Notes: generated by a model from the letters alone, not told the origin. A stretch of DNA of 64,000 nt from Acidimicrobium ferrooxidans (GCA_020723485.1 DYIU01000001.1:879779-943778), one strand, 5' to 3'; shown: positions 3,718-54,209, counted from the stretch's first letter. Translations and numbers: made by a program.

Positions 3718-6321
3718 GTGAAGCGCGTTTTTATTGCAACGATTCTGGTTTGCATGTGTGCCGGGGCCCTGGCGGGGCTCCAGCTGGCGCTTCCGTCCCA
3801 GGCCTTCGCGGCGGATTCCCCGACGGTCGGCCCCCCGCTTCCCGGCGGAGGCGCCCCCCGCACGATGGGATTCGTCCGTACCACCTCCGGAGACTACCCG
3901 AAAGCCCGCACTATGGACGCGACCGCCGCGAGCGTCCCCCAGGCGGTCGACCTGACCAACGCCGCGCTGCCTGTGGGAAGCCAGGGCGGCCAGTCCTCTT
4001 GCGTGGCCTGGACCGTTGCTTATTACTACAAGACCTACCAGGAGGCACGAGAGCACGGCTGGGACGTGTCCCGCGCGGACCGGCGCTTCAGCCCCTCGTT
4101 CCTCTACAACCAGATAAACGGCGGCCGTGACAGGGGAGCGAGCTTCCCCTCGGCATTCGAGCTCCTCAAGGACAACGGGGCCATCGACCTGAACGCGATG
4201 CCCTACAACGAGAACGATTACACCACGCAGCCCAACGCCCAGCAGGCGGAAGCTGCCAAACCGTATCAGATTGCCAACTACGCCTATATCTGGCGCGGAG
4301 CGGGCGGCAACGACGTGAACCAGATAAAGGCGCACATCGCGGCGGGCGACCCGGTTGCTCTCGGCATACCTGTCTACCAGGCCTTCTACTACTGCCAGGG
4401 CAACTGGGTCGGCTCACCCGCGGCCGGCGAGACCCTCTACGGCAACCACGGCATCTGCGTCGTCGGGTACGACGACAGCGCCGGCGGGGGCCAGGGTGGG
4501 ATAAAGATCGTAAACTCCTGGGGCTCCGACTGGGGAGCGGGCGGATACACCTACCTCTCCTACGATTTCGTGGCGAACTACTGCTGGGAAGCCTGGACGA
4601 TGACCGACAGCGCCTCCGACAGGCCGGCGGTCTCGAGCCTCAGCCCGGCGTCTGGGGCCGTTGACAGCCAGGTCACCATCTCCGGGGACAACTTCGGGAC
4701 GTTCAGGGGGTCGAGCGGAGTCAAGTTCAACGGGCTCGCAGCGACGGTCACCGGCTGGGACAACGACACTGTGACCGCGAAGGTCCCGGCGGGAGCGACT
4801 GACGGGAACGTGACGGTCACCAACTGGATCGGCGAGGTCAGCAACGGCAAGCCGTTCGACGTTGGGATGAGCCTAACGGGCGTCGCCCCCGGCGTGGCGA
4901 AGCCGGCCGACAGGGTCACCGTCTACGGTCAGGAGCTCGGCTCGGGCGGAACGCTCAAGTTCAACAGTACGACGCTGCAGGTGCTGTCCTGGAGCAGCAG
5001 TAAGATAGAGTTCGCGGCTCCGGCGGCGCTCGGCAGCGGCACCATCAAGGCCTATGTCGGCGGCAAGGTCTCGAACGGCGTCGCCTTCAGCGTGGTCGCC
5101 TCCACGTGGTACCTGGCTGAGGGCTGCACCAACGGCGGCTTCGAGACCTGGGTGCTCGTTCAGAACCCGAACAACAGGGCGGCCAACGTCAACGTCACCT
5201 ACATGACTCCCTCCGGCACGGTGCAGGGCCCACAGGTGAGCGTGCCCGCCAACGCCAGGCAGACATTCAACGTGGCGGACACGGTCCCCGGCCAGTGGGA
5301 GGTCTCCACCAGGGTGACCGCCGACCGCCCGGTGTTCGCAGAGAGGGCGATGTACGGCAACAACCGCGCCTGGGGCAGCGAGTCGATAGGGGTCGAGTCC
5401 CCCCAGGCCAGGTGGTACCTGGCGGAGGGTTCCACCGGGGGAGGCTTCGAGACCTGGATACTGGTGCAGAATCCCAACAGCACGCCGGCCCGCGTGATGC
5501 TCAACTACATGACCGAGACTGGAAAGGTCGAAGGCCCGTACGTGACGCTCGCGGCGAACTCCCGGAAGTCGTTCAACGTGGCTGACACCGTCCCCAACGT
5601 GAGCGGAGTCTCGACGACGGTGAGCTCGGACCGGCCGGTGATCGCCGAGCGCGCGATCTACTGGGCCAACCGCAAGGGCGGCACCGACTCTGTCGGGGTC
5701 ACCAGCGCGGCGACGAGCTGGTACCTCGCCGAGGGCTCAACCGGCGCCGGCTTCGAGACCTGGGTGCCGGTCATGAACCCGAGCTCGAAGGACGCGCGGG
5801 TTCAGCTGACATACATGACCGAGCGCGGCGAGGTCAGGGGCCCCAGCGTCACCATAAAGGCGGGGACGCGGCGGGTGTTCCACGTCGCGGACACCGTCCC
5901 GGACACGTGGAGCGTCTCGACCAGGGTGACCAGCGACCAGCCGGTGGTCGTGGAGCGCTCGGTCTACTGGAACGGCAGGGTCGAAGGCCATGAGTCGGTC
6001 GGCGTCATGGAGCCGGCCGAGACGTGGTACATGCCGGAGGGCAGCACGGGCCCGGGATTCGAGACCTGGGTCCTGGTGCAGAACCCGAACGACAAGGCCG
6101 TCGAGGTCAGCGTCAACTACATGACCCCCAAGGGCGAGATCAGCGGGCCGAAGGTGAAGCTGCCCGCGAACTCCCGCAAGACATTCTTCGTAGCGGACAC
6201 AGTGCCTGACCAGTGGCAGGTGTCGACTCGGGTGACCGCCGACGAGCCCGTTATCGCGGAGCGCTCAATGTACGGCAGCGGCCGCGTATGGGGGCACGAC
6301 TCGGTGGGCATTCCGAAATAG
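3718..6321 (+). CDS. Secreted papain-like (C1) cysteine peptidase with two IPT domains and four C-terminal repeats
   Basis: 867 residues, GTG start preceded by GGAGG. A signal peptide ends near AFA-AD (residue ~31). The catalytic domain (residues ~70-300) has the active Cys in QSSCVAW, the His in GNHGICVVGYDD and the Asn in NSWGSDWG, the C1A papain order. Two IPT/TIG beta domains follow (starts near PAVSSLSPASG and LTGVAPGVAKP). The tail is four repeats of 102 residues opening at 5107, 5413, 5719 and 6025 with WYLAEG or WYMPEG. The repeats are highly regular, the last ends at the C-terminus, and there is no anchor motif. It probably degrades protein outside the cell while the repeats hold it at the surface or multimerise it; the repeat role is inference. 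Confidence 0.9.
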   Translation: MKRVFIATILVCMCAGALAGLQLALPSQAFAADSPTVGPPLPGGGAPRTMGFVRTTSGDYPKARTMDATAASVPQAVDLTNAALPVGSQGGQSSCVAWTVAYYYKTYQEAREHGWDVSRADRRFSPSFLYNQINGGRDRGASFPSAFELLKDNGAIDLNAMPYNENDYTTQPNAQQAEAAKPYQIANYAYIWRGAGGNDVNQIKAHIAAGDPVALGIPVYQAFYYCQGNWVGSPAAGETLYGNHGICVVGYDDSAGGGQGGIKIVNSWGSDWGAGGYTYLSYDFVANYCWEAWTMTDSASDRPAVSSLSPASGAVDSQVTISGDNFGTFRGSSGVKFNGLAATVTGWDNDTVTAKVPAGATDGNVTVTNWIGEVSNGKPFDVGMSLTGVAPGVAKPADRVTVYGQELGSGGTLKFNSTTLQVLSWSSSKIEFAAPAALGSGTIKAYVGGKVSNGVAFSVVASTWYLAEGCTNGGFETWVLVQNPNNRAANVNVTYMTPSGTVQGPQVSVPANARQTFNVADTVPGQWEVSTRVTADRPVFAERAMYGNNRAWGSESIGVESPQARWYLAEGSTGGGFETWILVQNPNSTPARVMLNYMTETGKVEGPYVTLAANSRKSFNVADTVPNVSGVSTTVSSDRPVIAERAIYWANRKGGTDSVGVTSAATSWYLAEGSTGAGFETWVPVMNPSSKDARVQLTYMTERGEVRGPSVTIKAGTRRVFHVADTVPDTWSVSTRVTSDQPVVVERSVYWNGRVEGHESVGVMEPAETWYMPEGSTGPGFETWVLVQNPNDKAVEVSVNYMTPKGEISGPKVKLPANSRKTFFVADTVPDQWQVSTRVTADEPVIAERSMYGSGRVWGHDSVGIPK

Positions 6322-21271: not shown

Positions 21272-22867
21272 ATGCGAACCGCTGGTCCTGCGAGGCGCGG
21301 AGCACGGCTGCTGGCCGCATCGGCGCTGGGAATGGCCCTGTTGCTCGCCGTCGCGCTGCCCGCGACGGCCCAGCCCATCGGGCCGCACATAGACAACCTT
21401 CTGCCGACGCAGGGATTCGTCGGGACGCCGGTTGCCATACTCGGCAGCAACTTCGGCCTTCCAGTTCCCGGGAGCCATATCTACTTCAACGGGACGGAGG
21501 CTACTCCCATCACCTGGCAGGACGGAGTCATCACCGCGCAGGTACCGGACGGCGCGACGACCGGCCCGGTCACGGTCGTGACGCCGGTAGGGCTGAGCAA
21601 CGGGGTTGACTTCACCGTGAACGAGGCGCCCGCGCCGGCCCAGATCTGGTACCTCGCAGAGGGCACGACCGCCTGGGGATTCGAGACGTTCATCGTGATG
21701 GAAAACACCACCAGCGTGGACGCTACCGTGACCATGTTCTACGACACAACCCAGTACGGCAGGCTTCCGAGGCCACAGCCGGTCAACGTGCCCCCGGACT
21801 CACGGGTGACCATCAACGTCAATGACGACCTCGGGCTGCCGCTTGATTTTGCCACCGAGCTGAGGTCTTCACAGCTCATAGCCTGCGAGCGGGCCATGTA
21901 CTGGGGAGACCGGAGAGAGGGCACGGAGTCCGTCGGGGTGACAGGGGCTTCGCAGACCTGGTACCTGGCCGAAGGCTGCACCACCTGGCCATACGAGACA
22001 TGGATCTGCATCCAGAACCCGAGCATCACTGCCACCGCCAACATAGACATCACGTACATGACCTCGAACGGCGTGATCGAGAAAGAGACGTTCGGGGTCG
22101 GGGCGGGGCAGCGACTGAGCATCGACGTCTCCAAGGATGTCGGGCAGTGCGACGTCTCAACCAGGGTCGTGAGCGACCAGAACGTCATATGCGAGCGCTC
22201 GATGTACTGGAACGAGCGCCGCGGCGGCCACGACTCGATCGGGGTCACCGAGCCCGCCCAGGAATGGTACCTCGCGGAGGGCTCGACGGCATGGGGTTTC
22301 GATACCTGGCTTACGCTCCAGAACCCGAACGACTCATCCGCCAACGTCGATGTGACGTTCATGACGCCTGAGGGCCCGGTGGAGCTCCCCACGTTCACCG
22401 CCCCCGCCAACTCGAGGCAGACCGTCAACGTGAACGAGAAGGTCCCGGACACGGACACCTCGATTCAGGTCACAGCCGACCTGCCCGTTATCGCGGAGCG
22501 CGCCATGTACTGGGACAACGGGACCGGACGGGCGGGGCACGAGACGGTCGGGATGGACGCCCCCGCAAACACCGTGTATCTCGCTGAGGGGACCACGGCA
22601 TGGGGTTTTGACACATACGTCTGCATCCAGAACCCGAACGGAGCACCCGCCGTGGTGGACGTGACCTACCTCACGAACGAGGGGCCGGTTCCAGGGGCCC
22701 AGCGGACAGTCGAGCCTCACAGCCGCTTCACTATCAACGTGGCCGATGAGCTGCCGAACACCGATACCGCGATCAAGCTCGATTCCGACCGGCCGATAAT
22801 GGCCGAGCGCGCGATGTACTGGAACTCGATGGGCGCCGGGCACTGCTCCATAGGTTGGGTCCCTTAG
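21272..22867 (+). CDS. Secreted protein: IPT domain plus four C-terminal repeats
   Basis: 531 residues; AAGGAGG before the ATG. Twin-basic N-terminus and a hydrophobic stretch with cleavage near ATA-QP (~residue 32). One IPT/TIG domain (residues ~35-115, IDNLLPTQGFVGTP to SNGVDFTV) is followed by four repeats opening at 21647, 21959, 22265 and about 22573. This is the minimal form: no catalytic domain, just IPT and the four-repeat tail. It could be a structural surface protein built from the same module the proteases use; that is inference. Confidence 0.88.
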   Translation: MRTAGPARRGARLLAASALGMALLLAVALPATAQPIGPHIDNLLPTQGFVGTPVAILGSNFGLPVPGSHIYFNGTEATPITWQDGVITAQVPDGATTGPVTVVTPVGLSNGVDFTVNEAPAPAQIWYLAEGTTAWGFETFIVMENTTSVDATVTMFYDTTQYGRLPRPQPVNVPPDSRVTINVNDDLGLPLDFATELRSSQLIACERAMYWGDRREGTESVGVTGASQTWYLAEGCTTWPYETWICIQNPSITATANIDITYMTSNGVIEKETFGVGAGQRLSIDVSKDVGQCDVSTRVVSDQNVICERSMYWNERRGGHDSIGVTEPAQEWYLAEGSTAWGFDTWLTLQNPNDSSANVDVTFMTPEGPVELPTFTAPANSRQTVNVNEKVPDTDTSIQVTADLPVIAERAMYWDNGTGRAGHETVGMDAPANTVYLAEGTTAWGFDTYVCIQNPNGAPAVVDVTYLTNEGPVPGAQRTVEPHSRFTINVADELPNTDTAIKLDSDRPIMAERAMYWNSMGAGHCSIGWVP

Positions 22868-44902: not shown

Positions 44903-44978
44903 GCGGGTGTAGCTCAGCAGGCAGAGCGTCAGCTTCCCAAGCTGAAGGTCGTGGGTTCGAGACCCATCACCCGCTCCA
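44903..44978 (+). tRNA. tRNA-Gly (anticodon CCC), CCA encoded
   Basis: Acceptor stem GCGGGTG (44903-44909) pairs with CACCCGC (44968-44974), then T and an encoded CCA to 44978. The anticodon stem TCAGC/GCTGA holds TTCCCAA, anticodon CCC. Its 3' end resembles three repeats further right (46210, 47535, 48559), which suggests use as an integration site. Confidence 0.95.
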
Positions 44979-45091
44979 GCTCTTTATCGGCTTAGTTAAG
45001 CCACACATTACAATACAAGTAAGATTCTACATGGTTGATTAGCTTAGCTGATTCGGCCTATATTCGGGCAAACTCTTGTTCATTTGGCCAC

Positions 45092-45994
45092 TTATTCTAC
45101 GTTGACATGCGCGCTGATGCGGTCAATGCATGCCCTTATATAGTCAGAGTCGTCCACGGTGATCCTTATAGCCCCGTCCTCGCAGGCGGCGGCACAGCGC
45201 CCGCAGCCCTTGCATTCCTGGCCCACCACGGCCCTTCCGCCCGTGAGCCGCATCTGTTTGTAGATGCAGGCCTCCACGCAGGCACCGCAGCCGGCGCAGT
45301 CCTCCGTGACCTTCACCTCCACGCCCTCCAGCCGCATGATGATATCGCGGACGCCCCGCGACGCGTAGTGGAGGGCGGTGGTCAGGCAGCAGCAGGGGCA
45401 GCACTGGCAGATGGTCATCAGGCGGTTGTGCGGCTTTACCCCCAGCATCACGGAGTCGAAATCAATCCTGCCGATCACCGGCACCAGGCCCATCTCGGTT
45501 CCCGTTCGTAGGTGGTCAAGGGCCTCCTCCCTGCTTACGTGCCGCCCCACACTCGGCTCGATCTCGCGCGCTGCCTCGCCGATGAAGAGGCACCCGCGGT
45601 CGACTGGGAAATCCTTACAATCAAAGGACCTGCGGCAGGGGCAGAAGTTGAGAATCACATGGTGCCCGGCCTGGTTGATGAAATGCTCCACCACGGAGAA
45701 GGGCAAGGCCGTGCCGCCGCTCACCTCCACCCCTTCGTTTACCGGTATGCAGGTAAAGCTGGTGCCCCTAGCCTTCAGGATATGCGGGAGCAGAGAACGC
45801 AGCACCGGCCAGTTGGCCATCTTGAACATGGCGTCCTTGTGTTTGCTACTATCCGCGAACCACTCGAAACTCCTCCCGCTCCTGCCCATCTCCATGAACC
45901 CCCTATACCCCGGCATGGCAAAACGGCATATGCGTGGATGTTGACCGTCGAGTGCTCCAGTAGTCGCAAGTCCTCCCACTATATAGATTGACAT
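45092..45994 (-). CDS. 4Fe-4S protein with extra Cys clusters
   Basis: 300 residues as given; the start is uncertain and an ATG at 45895 with AGGGGG upstream is a good alternative (267 residues). The C-terminus has two 4Fe-4S motifs (CAGCGACVEACIYKQ and CKGCGRCAAACEDGA). Ahead of them lie two unusual clusters: CPCRRSFDC and CQCCPCCC. The middle (GLVPVIGRIDFDSVM, FINQAGHHVILN) resembles electron-transfer subunits without a clear name. It is in the AT-richer stretch after tRNA-Gly. Confidence 0.75.
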   Translation of the reverse strand: MSIYIVGGLATTGALDGQHPRICRFAMPGYRGFMEMGRSGRSFEWFADSSKHKDAMFKMANWPVLRSLLPHILKARGTSFTCIPVNEGVEVSGGTALPFSVVEHFINQAGHHVILNFCPCRRSFDCKDFPVDRGCLFIGEAAREIEPSVGRHVSREEALDHLRTGTEMGLVPVIGRIDFDSVMLGVKPHNRLMTICQCCPCCCLTTALHYASRGVRDIIMRLEGVEVKVTEDCAGCGACVEACIYKQMRLTGGRAVVGQECKGCGRCAAACEDGAIRITVDDSDYIRACIDRISAHVNVE

Positions 45995-46383
45995 TTCCCA
46001 TATGCAACTCCTGATGCAGATATTCTACGAGGCTCTCGAACCCGTCTCCACCATTGAGCAGGTAGTTACCCGACGGGGAGGCAAGGAGCCTGGTGATCAC
46101 TGTGCCCGAGTCGATCTGAGTCGATTATGCAGTGACATGGGATGGTGCTTGATAGTGCAGGCGTTCTTCTCTTCTTGTGTCAGCGGGAATCTTAATGTCG
46201 GGTTAATAGCGAGACGGTTCACCCGCTCCACTCATGAGCGGGGCGTGTACGCGTTCAGAACCAGGTTTTCCGGTAAGCGGAGTCCATATATATACAACAA
46301 TGCAAACCCCGATAAGGATGTATACTTGCAAGGGCTTTCCGCCCCTTCTGTAAGGGGAAAGAGACAGGACAGGATCAAAGGGA
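45995..46383. other. Intergenic region with degraded ORF and repeat R1
   Basis: Nearly 390 bases. A minus-strand frame (45903-46100, with FESLVEYLHQEL) may be the N-terminal remnant of a broken gene. Repeat R1 (46197-46230) lies in it, and a short CCCCTT/AAGGGG hairpin plus AT-rich boxes (46287-46335) precede the rightward RsgA gene and probably hold its promoter. Nothing else recognised. Confidence 0.45.
46197..46230 (+). repeat. Repeat R1 resembling the tRNA-Gly 3' end
   Basis: GTCGGGTTAATAGCGAGACG then GTTCACCCGCTCCA. The last 22 bases match the tRNA-Gly 3' end at 18 of 22 positions (CGAGAC and TCACCCGCTCCA identical). It is nearly identical to R3. Confidence 0.8.
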
Positions 46384-47460
46384 TTGAAAGAAAAGTTGCT
46401 GAACCTGGGTTTCACTGAGGGATTGATCCAGGAATCCGCTCTTTACGAATGCATGTTCCTGGGAAGGGTCGTTGCCCAGTACAAGGACCTGTACAGGGTG
46501 GTCACGGAGAACTCGGAGCTGATCGCGGAGATATCAGGGAAGATGCGCCATGTGTCCGGCGAGATGTCCGATTATCCTGCTGTCGGTGACTTCGTGATGA
46601 TTGACAGGGAGGACGCGCAACACGGCAACGCGATCATCCACGAAATACTGACGAGGAAGAGCGCATTTGTGAGAAGAGCCGCAGGCACGGCCCACGATAT
46701 CCAGGTCGTTGCGGCGAACATAGACACGGTGTTCATCTGCATGTCCCTAAACAGGGATTTCAACTTGCGGAGGCTCGAGAGGTATCTCGCCGTTGCCTGG
46801 GACAGCGGCTCAACCCCGGTGGTTGTGCTCACGAAGGCTGACCTGTGTGATGAGGTGGACTCGAAACTGGTGGAGATGAGTGATGCGACTACCGGGGTCG
46901 ATGTCATCGTCACCTCGAGCATGACCGAGGATGGATACCAGGCGATACTCGAGTACGTGAGAACAGGGCAGACGGTCGCCTTTATCGGTTCGTCCGGCGT
47001 TGGGAAGTCCACCCTGATAAACAGGCTCCTCGGTGAGGATGTCATCGAAACCGGGGAAGTCAGGAAGGGCGACAAGGGGAAACACGTCACAACGAGACGA
47101 GAACTGATAGTCGTTCCGACCGGCGGAGCGGTCATTGATACTCCAGGCATGCGCGAACTCGGCGTAGATTCCGTAGACCTTGCCAGGACCTTCAGCGACA
47201 TCGACGGGCTGGCGGACGGCTGCAGGTTCAAGGATTGCAGTCACGAGACTGAGCCGGGTTGCCGCGTGAGACAGGCGATAGCGGATGGTGAGCTCTCCGA
47301 AGAGCGCCTGGCCAGCTACAAGAAGCTGAAGAAAGAGGCAAGGTACGATGGGCTCAGTTCCAGGGAGATCGACAAAGAGAAGATGAGCGCGATGTACTCT
47401 GGCTTTGACGGGGTCAGGAACGCGCGAGCTTATGTAAAGTCGAAGAAGCGAGAGAGATAG
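46384..47460 (+). CDS. rsgA: Ribosome small-subunit-dependent GTPase A
   Basis: 358 residues, TTG start. The circularly permuted GTPase order is clear: G4 LTKADL first, then G1 GSSGVGKSTLINRL, then G3 DTPGMRELG. The zinc-binding end has the CRFKDCSHETEPGCRV knuckle. It helps mature the 30S subunit by checking the decoding site. Usually a core gene, but here it sits in an AT-richer stretch between tRNA-like repeats, so it may be an acquired extra copy. Confidence 0.93.
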   Translation: MKEKLLNLGFTEGLIQESALYECMFLGRVVAQYKDLYRVVTENSELIAEISGKMRHVSGEMSDYPAVGDFVMIDREDAQHGNAIIHEILTRKSAFVRRAAGTAHDIQVVAANIDTVFICMSLNRDFNLRRLERYLAVAWDSGSTPVVVLTKADLCDEVDSKLVEMSDATTGVDVIVTSSMTEDGYQAILEYVRTGQTVAFIGSSGVGKSTLINRLLGEDVIETGEVRKGDKGKHVTTRRELIVVPTGGAVIDTPGMRELGVDSVDLARTFSDIDGLADGCRFKDCSHETEPGCRVRQAIADGELSEERLASYKKLKKEARYDGLSSREIDKEKMSAMYSGFDGVRNARAYVKSKKRER

Positions 47461-47534
47461 TCCGGGTCGCTGCAAACCGAACCGGTCCCCCGCACCTCAC
47501 GATGCCCGGCTTGATGAGGGTGTGCAGATATGTA

Positions 47535-47554
47535 GAGACGGTTCACCCGCTCCA
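47535..47554 (+). repeat. Repeat R2 resembling the tRNA-Gly 3' end
   Basis: GAGACGGTTCACCCGCTCCA is the same last 20 bases as R1. The upstream half is missing. It lies between RsgA and the decarboxylase-like gene. Confidence 0.75.
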
Positions 47555-47717
47555 CGCTATCATGGTCAATTCTTGATAAGGTAAGCAAGCTACAGGTAGA
47601 TGTTTGCAGATTTTTTCTGCATTTCTTGTTCAGATGATATACTCATACGAGCGGCGACAAGCACCAGTCAGAACCATGGGAAGACTACGCCCGTAGGCTT
47701 CGAAGGGGGATGGTCTC

Positions 47718-48554
47718 ATGTCGGACGATTTCTTCTCCACGGTGCAGCAGATCGACTTGAAGGTCGAGGAATTCGAGTTCAAAGCCCCAGTCTTCTATTA
47801 CGATTTCCGAGACATGCTGGCGGTCTTTCCCGCCCGGTTGTCGGAGATCAGGAAACTGATGCCCGACAAGAGGTTGAGTCCCGCGCAGCTGGTTCCAGGC
47901 ATTGGAGCAGTAATGATGGGCGCCCTGGAGTACTCTGACACCGGCATCGGGCCTTATAACGAATTCAGCTTTGCTATCCTGGTCAACTCGCCGGATTTCC
48001 TTCCGCTTCCGGGCTATAACATGCTGCGCCAGCAGCTGCGTATGTATAACCATGTCTACATACACAGGCTTCCCGTTGATTCGAGGATAGCCCTTGTAGG
48101 CGGCCTCATGTTCGGCTTCCCGAAGTTCATGGCATCGATCGAGTTCGACGATACGGACCAGTGGACCAGCTGCGAAGTGAGCAAGGGCGGCGAGCTCCTG
48201 TGGAGGCTGAGGGGGAGGAAGATCCCTGCCACTCGTTATGACGAGATGAGGATGTTCGCTCACCTGTACCTGCAAGGCCAGCCGACGTGTCTCGAATTCA
48301 GGCTGAACGTGCTGGAATACGGGATGAGCGTAAAACCTACGGACGCAGAACTGGAGTTGGGCAGCCATCCTGTTGCGGAAGAGCTACGGCGCGCCCTCCT
48401 GTCAACCAGACCCTTGATGTATCTGAACGCCACTAAGACTCAGGCCATACTGTTCGGGCCCGAAGGCGTCTCGATGCCGGTTCTGGAGCAGTTTCTAAAA
48501 GGGAAGCTCATGAAAGAGGTGGACGAGTTCGTGGGCCAGGTGACGTCGGGTTAA
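47718..48554 (+). CDS. Acetoacetate decarboxylase family protein
   Basis: 278 residues, AAGGGGG before the ATG. The ADC fold is visible from GIGPYNEFSFAI and the catalytic-lysine block FGFPKFMASIEF, with PKxxA in place. Real acetoacetate decarboxylase makes acetone and CO2; many family members have other beta-keto substrates. It lies in the tRNA-Gly region. Its last bases form the start of repeat R3, and an ADC gene with no CoA-transferase next to it leaves the role open. Confidence 0.87.
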   Translation: MSDDFFSTVQQIDLKVEEFEFKAPVFYYDFRDMLAVFPARLSEIRKLMPDKRLSPAQLVPGIGAVMMGALEYSDTGIGPYNEFSFAILVNSPDFLPLPGYNMLRQQLRMYNHVYIHRLPVDSRIALVGGLMFGFPKFMASIEFDDTDQWTSCEVSKGGELLWRLRGRKIPATRYDEMRMFAHLYLQGQPTCLEFRLNVLEYGMSVKPTDAELELGSHPVAEELRRALLSTRPLMYLNATKTQAILFGPEGVSMPVLEQFLKGKLMKEVDEFVGQVTSG

Positions 48555-48577
48555 TAGCGAGACGGTTCACCGCTCCA
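48545..48577 (+). repeat. Repeat R3 resembling the tRNA-Gly 3' end
   Basis: Identical to R1 except for one missing C (CACCGCTCCA). The first bases encode the end of the decarboxylase gene (TCGGGTTAA includes its stop). Confidence 0.8.
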
Positions 48578-48740
48578 TCTTGGCCAGACATGCATCTGGC
48601 AAAGGATACTCTCTGGTCAACGGTCTTGAAGACCGTTGAGCCTCGAAAGGTGCTCCGTGGGTCCGGTCTTTCTCCCCCCACCGAATGACCCGATTCCGAT
48701 GGGATATACTGGTGGTGAAATCCACTCAGGAGGCATGGGG

Positions 48741-51626
48741 ATGATTCTCGATAAGACGAAAAGGATGCAATTCCTGCCGTGCAGATACTGGAGAGCCACA
48801 CAGGTGGTGGCCATCACCGTCGCTGCACTGCTTCTCTTTGCCACCGGCGCGGTGGCGGCGTGGCCCGAGGCGCAGTGGGTATCCGTTGACCTGTACGATA
48901 ATGATGTCCCTCTGATCGCTGTCGATCCCGCTGGAAATCCCAATGTCGTGTGGCGCGGATCCGATGGGTCTAACGGTCACGTCTACTACGCTGAGAACAA
49001 CGGCAGCGGGTGGAACCCGGACCCGGTATCCAGTGGCGTCTCGACCTCGAACTGGTACCCTCACATGGCGCTCGATTCGGCTGGAAACCCCAACATCGTA
49101 TGGTCCGGGTGGGTGAGCTCGGTCGAACAGATCTACTACGCCGAGAACACCGGGAGCGGGTGGACGCCACAGAAAGTCTCCCTCGGCACCTCTACGGCGA
49201 ACGAGGATCCACAGATAGCGCTCGATTCGGCTGGAAACCCCCATGTTGTATGGTACGGGACCGAGGGCTCGAGTAAACAGATCTATTACGCGGAGAACAC
49301 CGGGGGCGCCTGGCCCATCCCACAGAAGATATCCACCGGCGCGGCGCCCAACAACTATTTCCCGCGGCTTGCCCTGGACCCCGATGGAAATCCCAATGTG
49401 GTGTGGTATGGGATCGATGGCTCAAACTTCAACGTCTACTACGCGGAGAGCGACGGAGGCCCATGGACGCCACAAATGGTATCTACAGGAACAAATAATA
49501 GAAACCCGCAGATAGCGATAGACGGGGCCGGACACCCAAACGTGGTGTGGTGGGGGTGGGACGGCTCTACGGCTCAGATCTACTACGCCGAGAACGCCGG
49601 GAGCGGTTGGACGCCACAGATGGTCTCAACCACGTCGACCGGTAACATATCTCCCCAGATAGCGCTCGACTCGGAGGGAAACCCGAACGTGGTGTGGTGC
49701 GGGAGCGACGGCTCTACCAACCACATCTACTACGCCGAGAACACCGGGAGCGGTTGGGCACCGCAGTTGATATCCGCGACGTCGACGGACAACGAAGTTC
49801 CCCAGATCGTGCTCGATCCTGGTGGAAATCCCAGGGTGGTTTGGGGAGGGTCGTCGGGGGGGTCAAATACGATGGCCTGCTACGCGGAGAACAACGGAGG
49901 TGCCTGGACATCGCAGGTGTTGCCATCAGGCATCTCGACCGACGTCCGCAACCCGCAGCTGGCCCTTAGCTCTACAGGGAACCCGAACGTGGTCTGGTGG
50001 GGCCCCGACAACGTGCACGACTTCGAGCATATCTTCTACTCCGCACCGACTATCCCCACCGTGACCACGACCGCGCCTGGCGGTGTGACCTCTACCAGCG
50101 CGGTCTCAGGAGGCAACGTCACCGATGACGGGGGAGCACCGGTGACGGAGCGGGGCGTCTGCTGGAGCACCTCACCCAATCCGATAATATCAGGCGAACA
50201 CACCGTGGACGGCAACGGGATAGGCACCTTCTCAAGCGACATACCGGCGCTCAACCCGGGCACCCTCTACTACGTGCGGGCATACGCCACGAACTCCGCG
50301 GGGACAGGCTATGGTGACCAGAAGTCCTTCACCACACTATACCAAGCCGAGACCTCCTACCTCGCCGAGGGCACCAACGCCTGGGGATTCTCCACCTACA
50401 TAACGCTCGAGAACCCCTATCAGCTCGCATTGCACGCGAAGCTGACCTACATGGACCCGAGCGGCCCGACGGCGGGAAAGGGGATACTGAAGAGCCGCAC
50501 CCTGGTGCTGCCCCCTGCCTCCCAGACCACCGTCTCATCCATGTCGGACATCGGGGAGATAGACTTCGCCACCAAGGTGGAGTGCACCGAGGGCTACGGC
50601 ATAGGGATAGACCGCACGATGTTCTGGACCGGGAAGGGCGCTGCGTGCCCGGGCTACCACTCATCAGTCGCGAGCGGTTCCCTGTCAAACACCTGGTACA
50701 TGCCCGAAGGCAGCTCAAACTGGGGGTTCGAGACCTGGACCTGCGCCTTCAACCCGAACGCCGACCCGGCGAACGTCACTCTCACCTACAACACACAAGA
50801 TGGCCCGGTGACCGTGCATAAGACCATACCCCCGCACGCGCGGGCCACCTGGCCCATGGTGGACGATGTGGGAGCGGCGGACGCCTCCATACAGATTGAG
50901 AGCGACCAGCCGCTGGTGGCGGAGAGGAGCATGTACCGAGACGACCACAGGGAGGGCTCCTGCTCGATAGGCGCCACCGATCCCACCCTGACGTTCTTCC
51001 TGGCCGAGGGGGCGACAGGGTACGACGCTGACTTCGTCACCTATGTCCTCGTCCAGAACCCTGGAACAGAGACCAACAAGGTCTCCATAACCTACAACAC
51101 AGGCTCCGGCCCTGTGCCGGGACCGGCTTTCGAGATGGCCCCGGGCTCCCGCAAGACGGTCAGGGTGAACGATACCCTGCCGCTGAACACTGACTTCTCG
51201 ACGACGGTACAAGGCACGGAGTCACTCGTAGCGGAGCGGGCCATGTACTGGGATGCCGGCAGCGGAGAGGCCTTCCATGCTTCGATCGGGCTCTCGATAC
51301 CGCATGTCTTCTTCATGCTCCCCGACGGGCAGACGGGCAACGGCTTCGAGACCTGGACGGTGGTCTCCAACATCTACCAGGAGGAAGTCGAGGTCCGCGT
51401 CACCTACCTCCCGCAGGACGGGAAAGGCGAGCCGGTCTCCTTCACCGCGAAGATACCCCCGCTCTCCCGCAGATCGTTCAACATGGCCGACAAGGTGCCG
51501 TCCGGCAGGGCGGCCGCCATGGTCGAGTCCCTGGGCGAGGGTGAGCCCGACCCGATCCTGGTCGAACGGGCCATGTACATGAACCAGAAGGGAGCGGGAA
51601 CCAGTACCATCGGTTCCTGCGGGTGA
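48741..51626 (+). CDS. Exported protein: 8 beta-propeller-type repeats, a fibronectin-like domain and four C-terminal repeats
   Basis: 961 residues from the second of two close ATGs, spaced correctly from AGGAGG. A signal peptide (VVAITVAALLLFATGAVAA) is followed by eight repeats of about 50 residues (core LALD..GNPNVVW-G..GS...IYYAEN), probably an eight-bladed propeller, with closely similar DNA too. A fibronectin-like domain (TVTTTAPGGVTSTSAVSGG to DQKSFTTL) and then four repeats of the surface module open at about 50352, 50694, 50990 and 51306. The last ends at the C-terminus. Probably a surface binding protein; ligand unknown. Confidence 0.88.
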   Translation: MILDKTKRMQFLPCRYWRATQVVAITVAALLLFATGAVAAWPEAQWVSVDLYDNDVPLIAVDPAGNPNVVWRGSDGSNGHVYYAENNGSGWNPDPVSSGVSTSNWYPHMALDSAGNPNIVWSGWVSSVEQIYYAENTGSGWTPQKVSLGTSTANEDPQIALDSAGNPHVVWYGTEGSSKQIYYAENTGGAWPIPQKISTGAAPNNYFPRLALDPDGNPNVVWYGIDGSNFNVYYAESDGGPWTPQMVSTGTNNRNPQIAIDGAGHPNVVWWGWDGSTAQIYYAENAGSGWTPQMVSTTSTGNISPQIALDSEGNPNVVWCGSDGSTNHIYYAENTGSGWAPQLISATSTDNEVPQIVLDPGGNPRVVWGGSSGGSNTMACYAENNGGAWTSQVLPSGISTDVRNPQLALSSTGNPNVVWWGPDNVHDFEHIFYSAPTIPTVTTTAPGGVTSTSAVSGGNVTDDGGAPVTERGVCWSTSPNPIISGEHTVDGNGIGTFSSDIPALNPGTLYYVRAYATNSAGTGYGDQKSFTTLYQAETSYLAEGTNAWGFSTYITLENPYQLALHAKLTYMDPSGPTAGKGILKSRTLVLPPASQTTVSSMSDIGEIDFATKVECTEGYGIGIDRTMFWTGKGAACPGYHSSVASGSLSNTWYMPEGSSNWGFETWTCAFNPNADPANVTLTYNTQDGPVTVHKTIPPHARATWPMVDDVGAADASIQIESDQPLVAERSMYRDDHREGSCSIGATDPTLTFFLAEGATGYDADFVTYVLVQNPGTETNKVSITYNTGSGPVPGPAFEMAPGSRKTVRVNDTLPLNTDFSTTVQGTESLVAERAMYWDAGSGEAFHASIGLSIPHVFFMLPDGQTGNGFETWTVVSNIYQEEVEVRVTYLPQDGKGEPVSFTAKIPPLSRRSFNMADKVPSGRAAAMVESLGEGEPDPILVERAMYMNQKGAGTSTIGSCG

Positions 51627-54147: not shown

Positions 54148-54209
54148 CCTGTAGTGAATGCAGGTGTGTTGAGGCGGTCACCCGCGCCAGGTCAGTGAAC
54201 CCTCCGGCG

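Follow-up and report, generated by a model that had tools for sequence, protein, structure and literature searches.

The sequence studied here is a 64,000-nucleotide stretch of the Acidimicrobium ferrooxidans genome (GCA_020723485.1, DYIU01000001.1:879779-943778), referred to below as the window, in which a tRNA-Gly(CCC) gene, found intact by both ARAGORN and Rfam, is followed by three att-like copies of its own 3' end (R1, R2, and R3). The copies lie 1252, 2576, and 3599 bp past the tRNA, and the intervals that they close each hold one intact gene, encoding in turn a protein with ferredoxin domains, an RsgA-type GTPase, and an acetoacetate-decarboxylase-like protein (Table 1). An original prediction made from the DNA alone had described a tRNA-Gly followed by three fossil copies of its 3' end that bracket the RsgA and decarboxylase-like genes. 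The tRNA and its copies were confirmed with ARAGORN, Rfam, match searches, and shuffled controls, and the two genes by PF03193, PF06314, and intact open reading frames (ORFs), whereas the unit between the tRNA and R1, with its ferredoxin-domain gene, had been overlooked.

Repeats behind the tRNA-Gly(CCC) gene

The three repeats share a common layout. R1 consists of a left arm, GTCGGGTTAATAGCGAGACGG, followed by a tRNA-like end, TTCACCCGCTCCA; R2 has a left arm, GGGTGTGCAGATATGTAGAGACGG, that is near the main TGTGTGYAG type; and R3 combines an R1-type left arm with a tRNA-like end that is short of one C. R1 and R3 are identical at 33 of 34 positions, as had been predicted. The last 12 nt of the tRNA, TCACCCGCTCCA, are present exactly in R1 and R2 and, minus one C, in R3, and the CGAGAC match to the tRNA is full in R1 and reduced to GAGAC in R2. 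A 22-nt probe allowed up to three mismatches matched R1 and R2 alone within the window and had no match in 100 dinucleotide shuffles. In the whole 3.36 Mb genome, the motif is limited to the CCC locus and one related site behind tRNA-Gly(TCC); that is, the repeats are not common elsewhere in the genome.

An earlier sequence model had been built from 28 sites including the four of this genome, which makes its E-values for those four circular; we therefore used a leave-out profile, built without any site of the A. ferrooxidans genome under study. This profile recovered all four sites, R3 marginally, with scores of 20.4 bits for R1, 16.4 for R2, 10.4 for R3, and 35.0 for the TCC-locus site (E 7.7e-10), compared with 7.4 bits for the best of 10 shuffled windows. 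The tRNA end alone already scores 10.5 bits, so R3 taken singly rests mainly on its identity to R1. A possible decayed fourth site, GAATGCAGGTGTGTTGAGGCGGTCACCCGC (window 54156-54185), was not significant (E 1.6) and may reflect either decay or chance.

A 37-bp site family in the class

R1, R2, and R3 belong to a family of 37-bp sites, ATGTGTGYAGTTTGAACGAGNCGGGTTTCCCGCTCCA, whose members are found across the class, both at tRNA-Gly genes and within arrays. Alignment of 31 sites revealed a sharp conserved block that starts at position -36 and stops with the final base of CCA; neither the 50 bp to its left nor the 25 bp to its right are conserved. Each site is made up of a cassette-specific left arm of approximately 25 bp and a copy of the last 12 nt of the tRNA; the left arm is not derived from the tRNA, yet it is kept across genera. 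CG replaces the CC of the tRNA-Gly T-arm in 27 of the 31 sites, and three carry the tRNA's CCC. Besides the common TGTGTGYAG arm, a second type, GTTAATAGCGAGACG, is found in R1 and R3 and also in G005 (relatives are given by genome labels), and one site with a TGTGTGCA arm is present in G023, which belongs to another family of the class. The tRNA-like half tracks the local isoacceptor: its variable bases (TNN) are TCA for the CCC locus of this genome, TCT for its TCC locus, TGA in G028, and TTT in G006 and G002.

A pattern search of 31 genomes of the class located clusters of sites in G007, G004, G005, G028, and others, and both the site family and the unit size recur in the majority of the relatives within the family and in some members of another family of the class. 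Among 396 genomes of the phylum, site clusters were confined to this class, and matches elsewhere were isolated. Two exact site patterns gave no match when searched against viral contigs.

Cassette arrays in relatives and their recurrence

Relatives carry up to approximately 15 sites per genome, spaced 0.06–1.5 kb apart and delimiting one- or two-gene cassettes, many of which encode toxin-antitoxin pairs. In G007, approximately 15 sites are spread over several contigs, with cassettes of 0.06–1.5 kb. Array cargo includes a PIN toxin with an RHH antitoxin, a nucleotidyltransferase with HepT, a PemK/MazF-type toxin, DUF4258 with an MqsA-like protein, and small lipoproteins, together with a SpoIIAA-like protein and a beta-lactamase-family protein in G004 and Fic and an M48 peptidase in G028. 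The genes between sites are unrelated and lie in both orientations, and four cassettes, of 61–67 bp, contain nothing but the site. Two arrays were joined to tRNA-Gly(CCC) contigs, that on contig C9 of G007 through an exact 140-bp overlap and that on C55 of G004 through a 97% match over 234 bp.

Whole cassettes recur between genomes. The PIN-toxin cassette is found in three genera of two families with equal extent and borders and unrelated flanks, directly behind tRNA-Gly in G006 and G010 and mid-array in G007; the DNA match is 89% over 765 bp for G007 and 72–74% over approximately 750 bp for G010, which belongs to another family. A second recurring cassette is common to G007, G008 (85%), and G001 (75%) and spans two genera. 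Duplicate cassettes with different neighbours also occur within genomes, namely C67/C68 (97%) and C77/C78 (94%) in G007 and C55/C11 (90%) in G004.

In G028 (L162:920-6197), a copy of the tRNA-Gly terminator hairpin, AAGCCGGAGG...CCTCCGGCTTTTT, stands after every site, its loop varying between copies, as if an insertion had to restore termination of the tRNA as well.

The three cassettes and neighbouring features

The three cassettes have a lower GC content (0.545–0.577) than the 10 kb upstream (0.656) and the 10 kb downstream (0.616), which bears out the predicted AT-richer interval; the interval has a foreign look. RsgA is sporadic and has a single match in this genome, and the ferredoxin-domain and decarboxylase-like proteins come from families whose paralogues occur both in this genome and class-wide. 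The stop codon of the decarboxylase-like gene (48552-48554) falls within R3. The neighbour of the tRNA is a response-regulator gene in G001, G004, and G007 but a different gene here.

Table 1. Features of the tRNA-Gly(CCC) locus (window coordinates) and recombinase loci in relatives
Feature	Position	Strand	Basis or remark
tRNA-Gly(CCC) gene, putative docking point	44903..44978	+	ARAGORN; Rfam RF00005, 68.7 bits
Half common to tRNA and sites, last 21 nt of tRNA, CGAGACCCATCACCCGCTCCA	44958-44978	+	Site model aligns here
Cassette 1, 1252 bp, tRNA end through R1	44979..46230	+	Site-to-site interval; GC 0.577
Cassette 1 gene, 300-aa protein with 4Fe-4S ferredoxin domains, intact	45092..45994	-	ORF; Pfam Fer4
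R1, 37-bp att-like site of cassette 1	46194..46230	+	Leave-out profile, E 3e-5
Cassette 2, 1324 bp, R1 end through R2	46231..47554	+	Site-to-site interval; GC 0.561
Cassette 2 gene, RsgA-type GTPase, 358 aa, intact	46384..47460	+	PF03193, E 5e-51
R2, 37-bp att-like site of cassette 2	47518..47554	+	Leave-out profile, E 5.5e-4
Cassette 3, 1023 bp, R2 end through R3	47555..48577	+	Site-to-site interval; GC 0.545
Cassette 3 gene, acetoacetate-decarboxylase-like, 278 aa, intact	47718..48554	+	PF06314, E 3.5e-13; ORF
R3, att-like site of cassette 3	48542..48577	+	Leave-out profile, E 0.045
Catalytic-domain-only tyrosine recombinase loci (G007 and G008)	L163:352-924, L164:8929-9528, L144:9072-9578		

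At the second locus of this genome (G000:C2, L134:10108-13043), the site lies 2.86 kb downstream of tRNA-Gly(TCC), and the interval contains a Phd/YefM antitoxin, a short-chain dehydrogenase, and an enoyl-CoA-hydratase-like ORF.

At the DNA level, three stretches of the window (5104-5206, 22193-22564, and 50550-51289) cross-match one of the flanking genes of G007. The copy at 48636-51626 encodes a BNR-repeat/DUF5719 protein, and the cross-matching stretches therefore probably represent a repeated surface-protein family.

Recombinases in the window, the genome, and relatives

A search of the window for integrase relics found no tyrosine recombinase, whole or broken. Elsewhere the genome encodes four tyrosine recombinases, XerC, XerD, and two phage-type enzymes, and no serine resolvase was found in it; serine recombinases were absent from this genome, G006, and G002, all three of which carry sites.

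The two phage-type integrases (L141, L142, L177, L193; G000:C10 and the start of C3) are located at the ends of contigs, next to tRNA-Lys(TTT) sequence, which suggests that contig C10 is a 38-kb element using tRNA-Lys(TTT). Because both L141 and L142 adjoin this sequence, they are unlikely to be the array enzyme.

A tyrosine recombinase of 190–200 aa that consists of the catalytic domain only is present in several copies and fragments in G007 and in G008 (Table 1), one of the copies being located 5 kb upstream of array C67. No near-identical homologue turned up in the remaining array-bearing genomes that were examined, and no sites flank the gene; it was not assigned as the array enzyme and is a candidate for G007 and G008 only.

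Interpretation of the locus

These findings make it very probable that the locus consists of three mobile, integrase-less, one-gene cassettes stacked at tRNA-Gly(CCC) by a recombinase acting in trans. Because cassettes recur across genera with the same ends, the whole looks like an integron-like gene-stacking system with a tRNA dock, and the cassettes appear to have been small and integrase-free from the outset. Successive integration at the tRNA 3' end, as originally proposed, is supported. The word fossil is not supported, as each unit is approximately 1–1.3 kb long with an intact ORF and whole cassettes recur across genera with exact borders; likewise, the statement that no integrase remains holds for the window, but not in the sense of islands that decayed.

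We propose that a cassette circle bearing one site would recombine with the 3' end of the tRNA, the crossover falling within the shared TNNCCCGCTCCA block and most likely to the right of the CG/CC difference, since the T-stem bases of the tRNA have to be preserved. The tRNA would thus retain its T stem and have its 3' end replaced by a functional one brought in by the cassette; the previous 3' end would become the site at the far side of the new cassette. Repeated insertion would then build an array in which the newest cassette adjoins the tRNA, with the recombinase acting in trans and encoded outside the array, and repair, or an exchange placed further to the left, would account for the three CCC sites. 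R3 is both the farthest copy and the damaged one, which fits this order, although as evidence it is weak. A simple tyrosine recombinase is most likely the acting enzyme, because the site is short (37 bp) and has no outlying conserved arms.

Several points weigh against this interpretation. No recombinase that could be linked to the array was found; since none is linked in this genome, the enzyme would have to be of a general type (a Xer protein, for example), be supplied from outside, or have been lost. The overlap between site and tRNA differs at 2–3 bases (CGG for CCC), which is unusual for tyrosine recombinases, and no circular form of a cassette was seen. Cassettes 1–3 of the window were not themselves found in another genome, and the evidence for mobility therefore concerns their kind rather than these three; in addition, most of the relatives are fragmented assemblies.

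Alternative explanations and comparison with known systems

Successive larger integrative elements or prophages could instead have inserted at the tRNA and decayed with loss of their integrases, leaving the repeats as attR remnants and the genes as leftover cargo. Ordinary larger islands do occur at this target: in G032, from another family (L106), two 45-nt copies of the 3' half of tRNA-Gly lie 8.1 and 11.6 kb downstream, and G001 has a tRNA-Gly copy approximately 7 kb downstream. The one-base deletion in R3 would also suit decay. However, all three units of the window are single-gene, alike in size, and intact, no integrase relic accompanies them, and, unlike in canonical tRNA islands and prophages, no integrase gene lies beside the tRNA-proximal att site. 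The pattern is moreover repeated in G007, G004, G005, and G028, and independent decay to one-gene remnants would not explain specific cassettes with exact borders across genera. We consider this origin improbable.

A true integron, or a CALIN (integrase-less cassette cluster), with strongly diverged attC sites would account for tandem cassettes with approximately one ORF and one site each, as found here. Toxin-antitoxin cargo, empty cassettes, a gene end overlapping its site (as at R3), and an integrase that may be missing are likewise typical of chromosomal integron arrays and CALINs (PMC8618304). In contrast to these, neither IntI nor an attI or Pc was seen here, integron-integrase models reaching at most 119 bits in this genome against cut-offs of at least 265. 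The sites show no attC folding, as 16 of them (80 nt each) folded no better than shuffles (mean z -0.57 for the top strand and -0.61 for the bottom strand), and the primary site is a tRNA gene, tRNA-Gly, whose sequence lies within every site. An integron origin is accordingly very unlikely. An attC-like bulged hairpin spotted by eye, GAG-N-CGG...CCGCTC, was no more stable than shuffles. The only IntI seen, a complete, proteobacterial-looking integron integrase on the 4-kb contig G006:C98 (L166), is probably contamination.

On the least credible reading, the repeats would not be recombination sites but would have arisen by tandem duplication, or would be a shared element, regulatory or transcriptional, copied from the 3' region of the tRNA. 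This would suit G028, where all repeats carry the tRNA terminator hairpin. Against it stand a left arm that is conserved across genera though not tRNA-derived, unrelated genes in both orientations between the repeats, and homologous cassettes that stop exactly at the repeat in different genomes.

The closest likeness of the stacked cassettes is to additive flexible genomic islands (fGIs), in which cassettes are added at tRNA genes and each leaves a direct repeat of the tRNA end. Such islands have been described in Candidatus Actinomarinales, with cassette transfer between genera at approximately 75% identity (PMC7771536), in Candidatus Methylopumilus, where fGI-2 has recurring 20-nt tRNA-Lys ends (PMC10872708), and in Alteromonas (fGI1; PMC4119200). 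Here too, each cassette of the stack beside a tRNA gene closes with a repeat of the tRNA 3' end. Cassette content differs between genera. Unlike in those islands, the units are mostly small (one or two genes, or the site only), the cargo is rich in toxin-antitoxin genes, and there is a defined 37-bp site with a conserved non-tRNA arm and the CG-for-CC change. tRNA-targeted additive cassettes are thus already known, and the present system is of that kind, with its own site as the new part. Tycheposons are described in PMC10872708 as elements of 4–200 kb that sit at tRNA genes and have a XerD-type recombinase; they resemble the present units in being cargo elements that target tRNA, whereas the units here measure 1–1.5 kb (1.0–1.3 kb in the window) and have no recombinase of their own.

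A bolder proposal is that the cassettes form a separate recombination system independent of integrons, with a dedicated trans-acting recombinase, single-gene circles, the 37-bp site, tRNA-Gly as the primary dock, and superintegron-like toxin-antitoxin arrays. We offer this tentatively, and for now would lean slightly against it.

Significance

Integrons are the textbook route by which bacteria collect single genes. If our interpretation is correct, the class would possess a second system for stacking one-gene cassettes, and the strategy would have evolved more than once. An essential tRNA gene would serve as the dock and be repaired upon every insertion, and the defined 37-bp site could be used to hunt for the recombinase. 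In a class known mostly from fragmented assemblies, such a system would explain why tRNA-Gly is a hot spot for the gain of toxin-antitoxin and other single genes.

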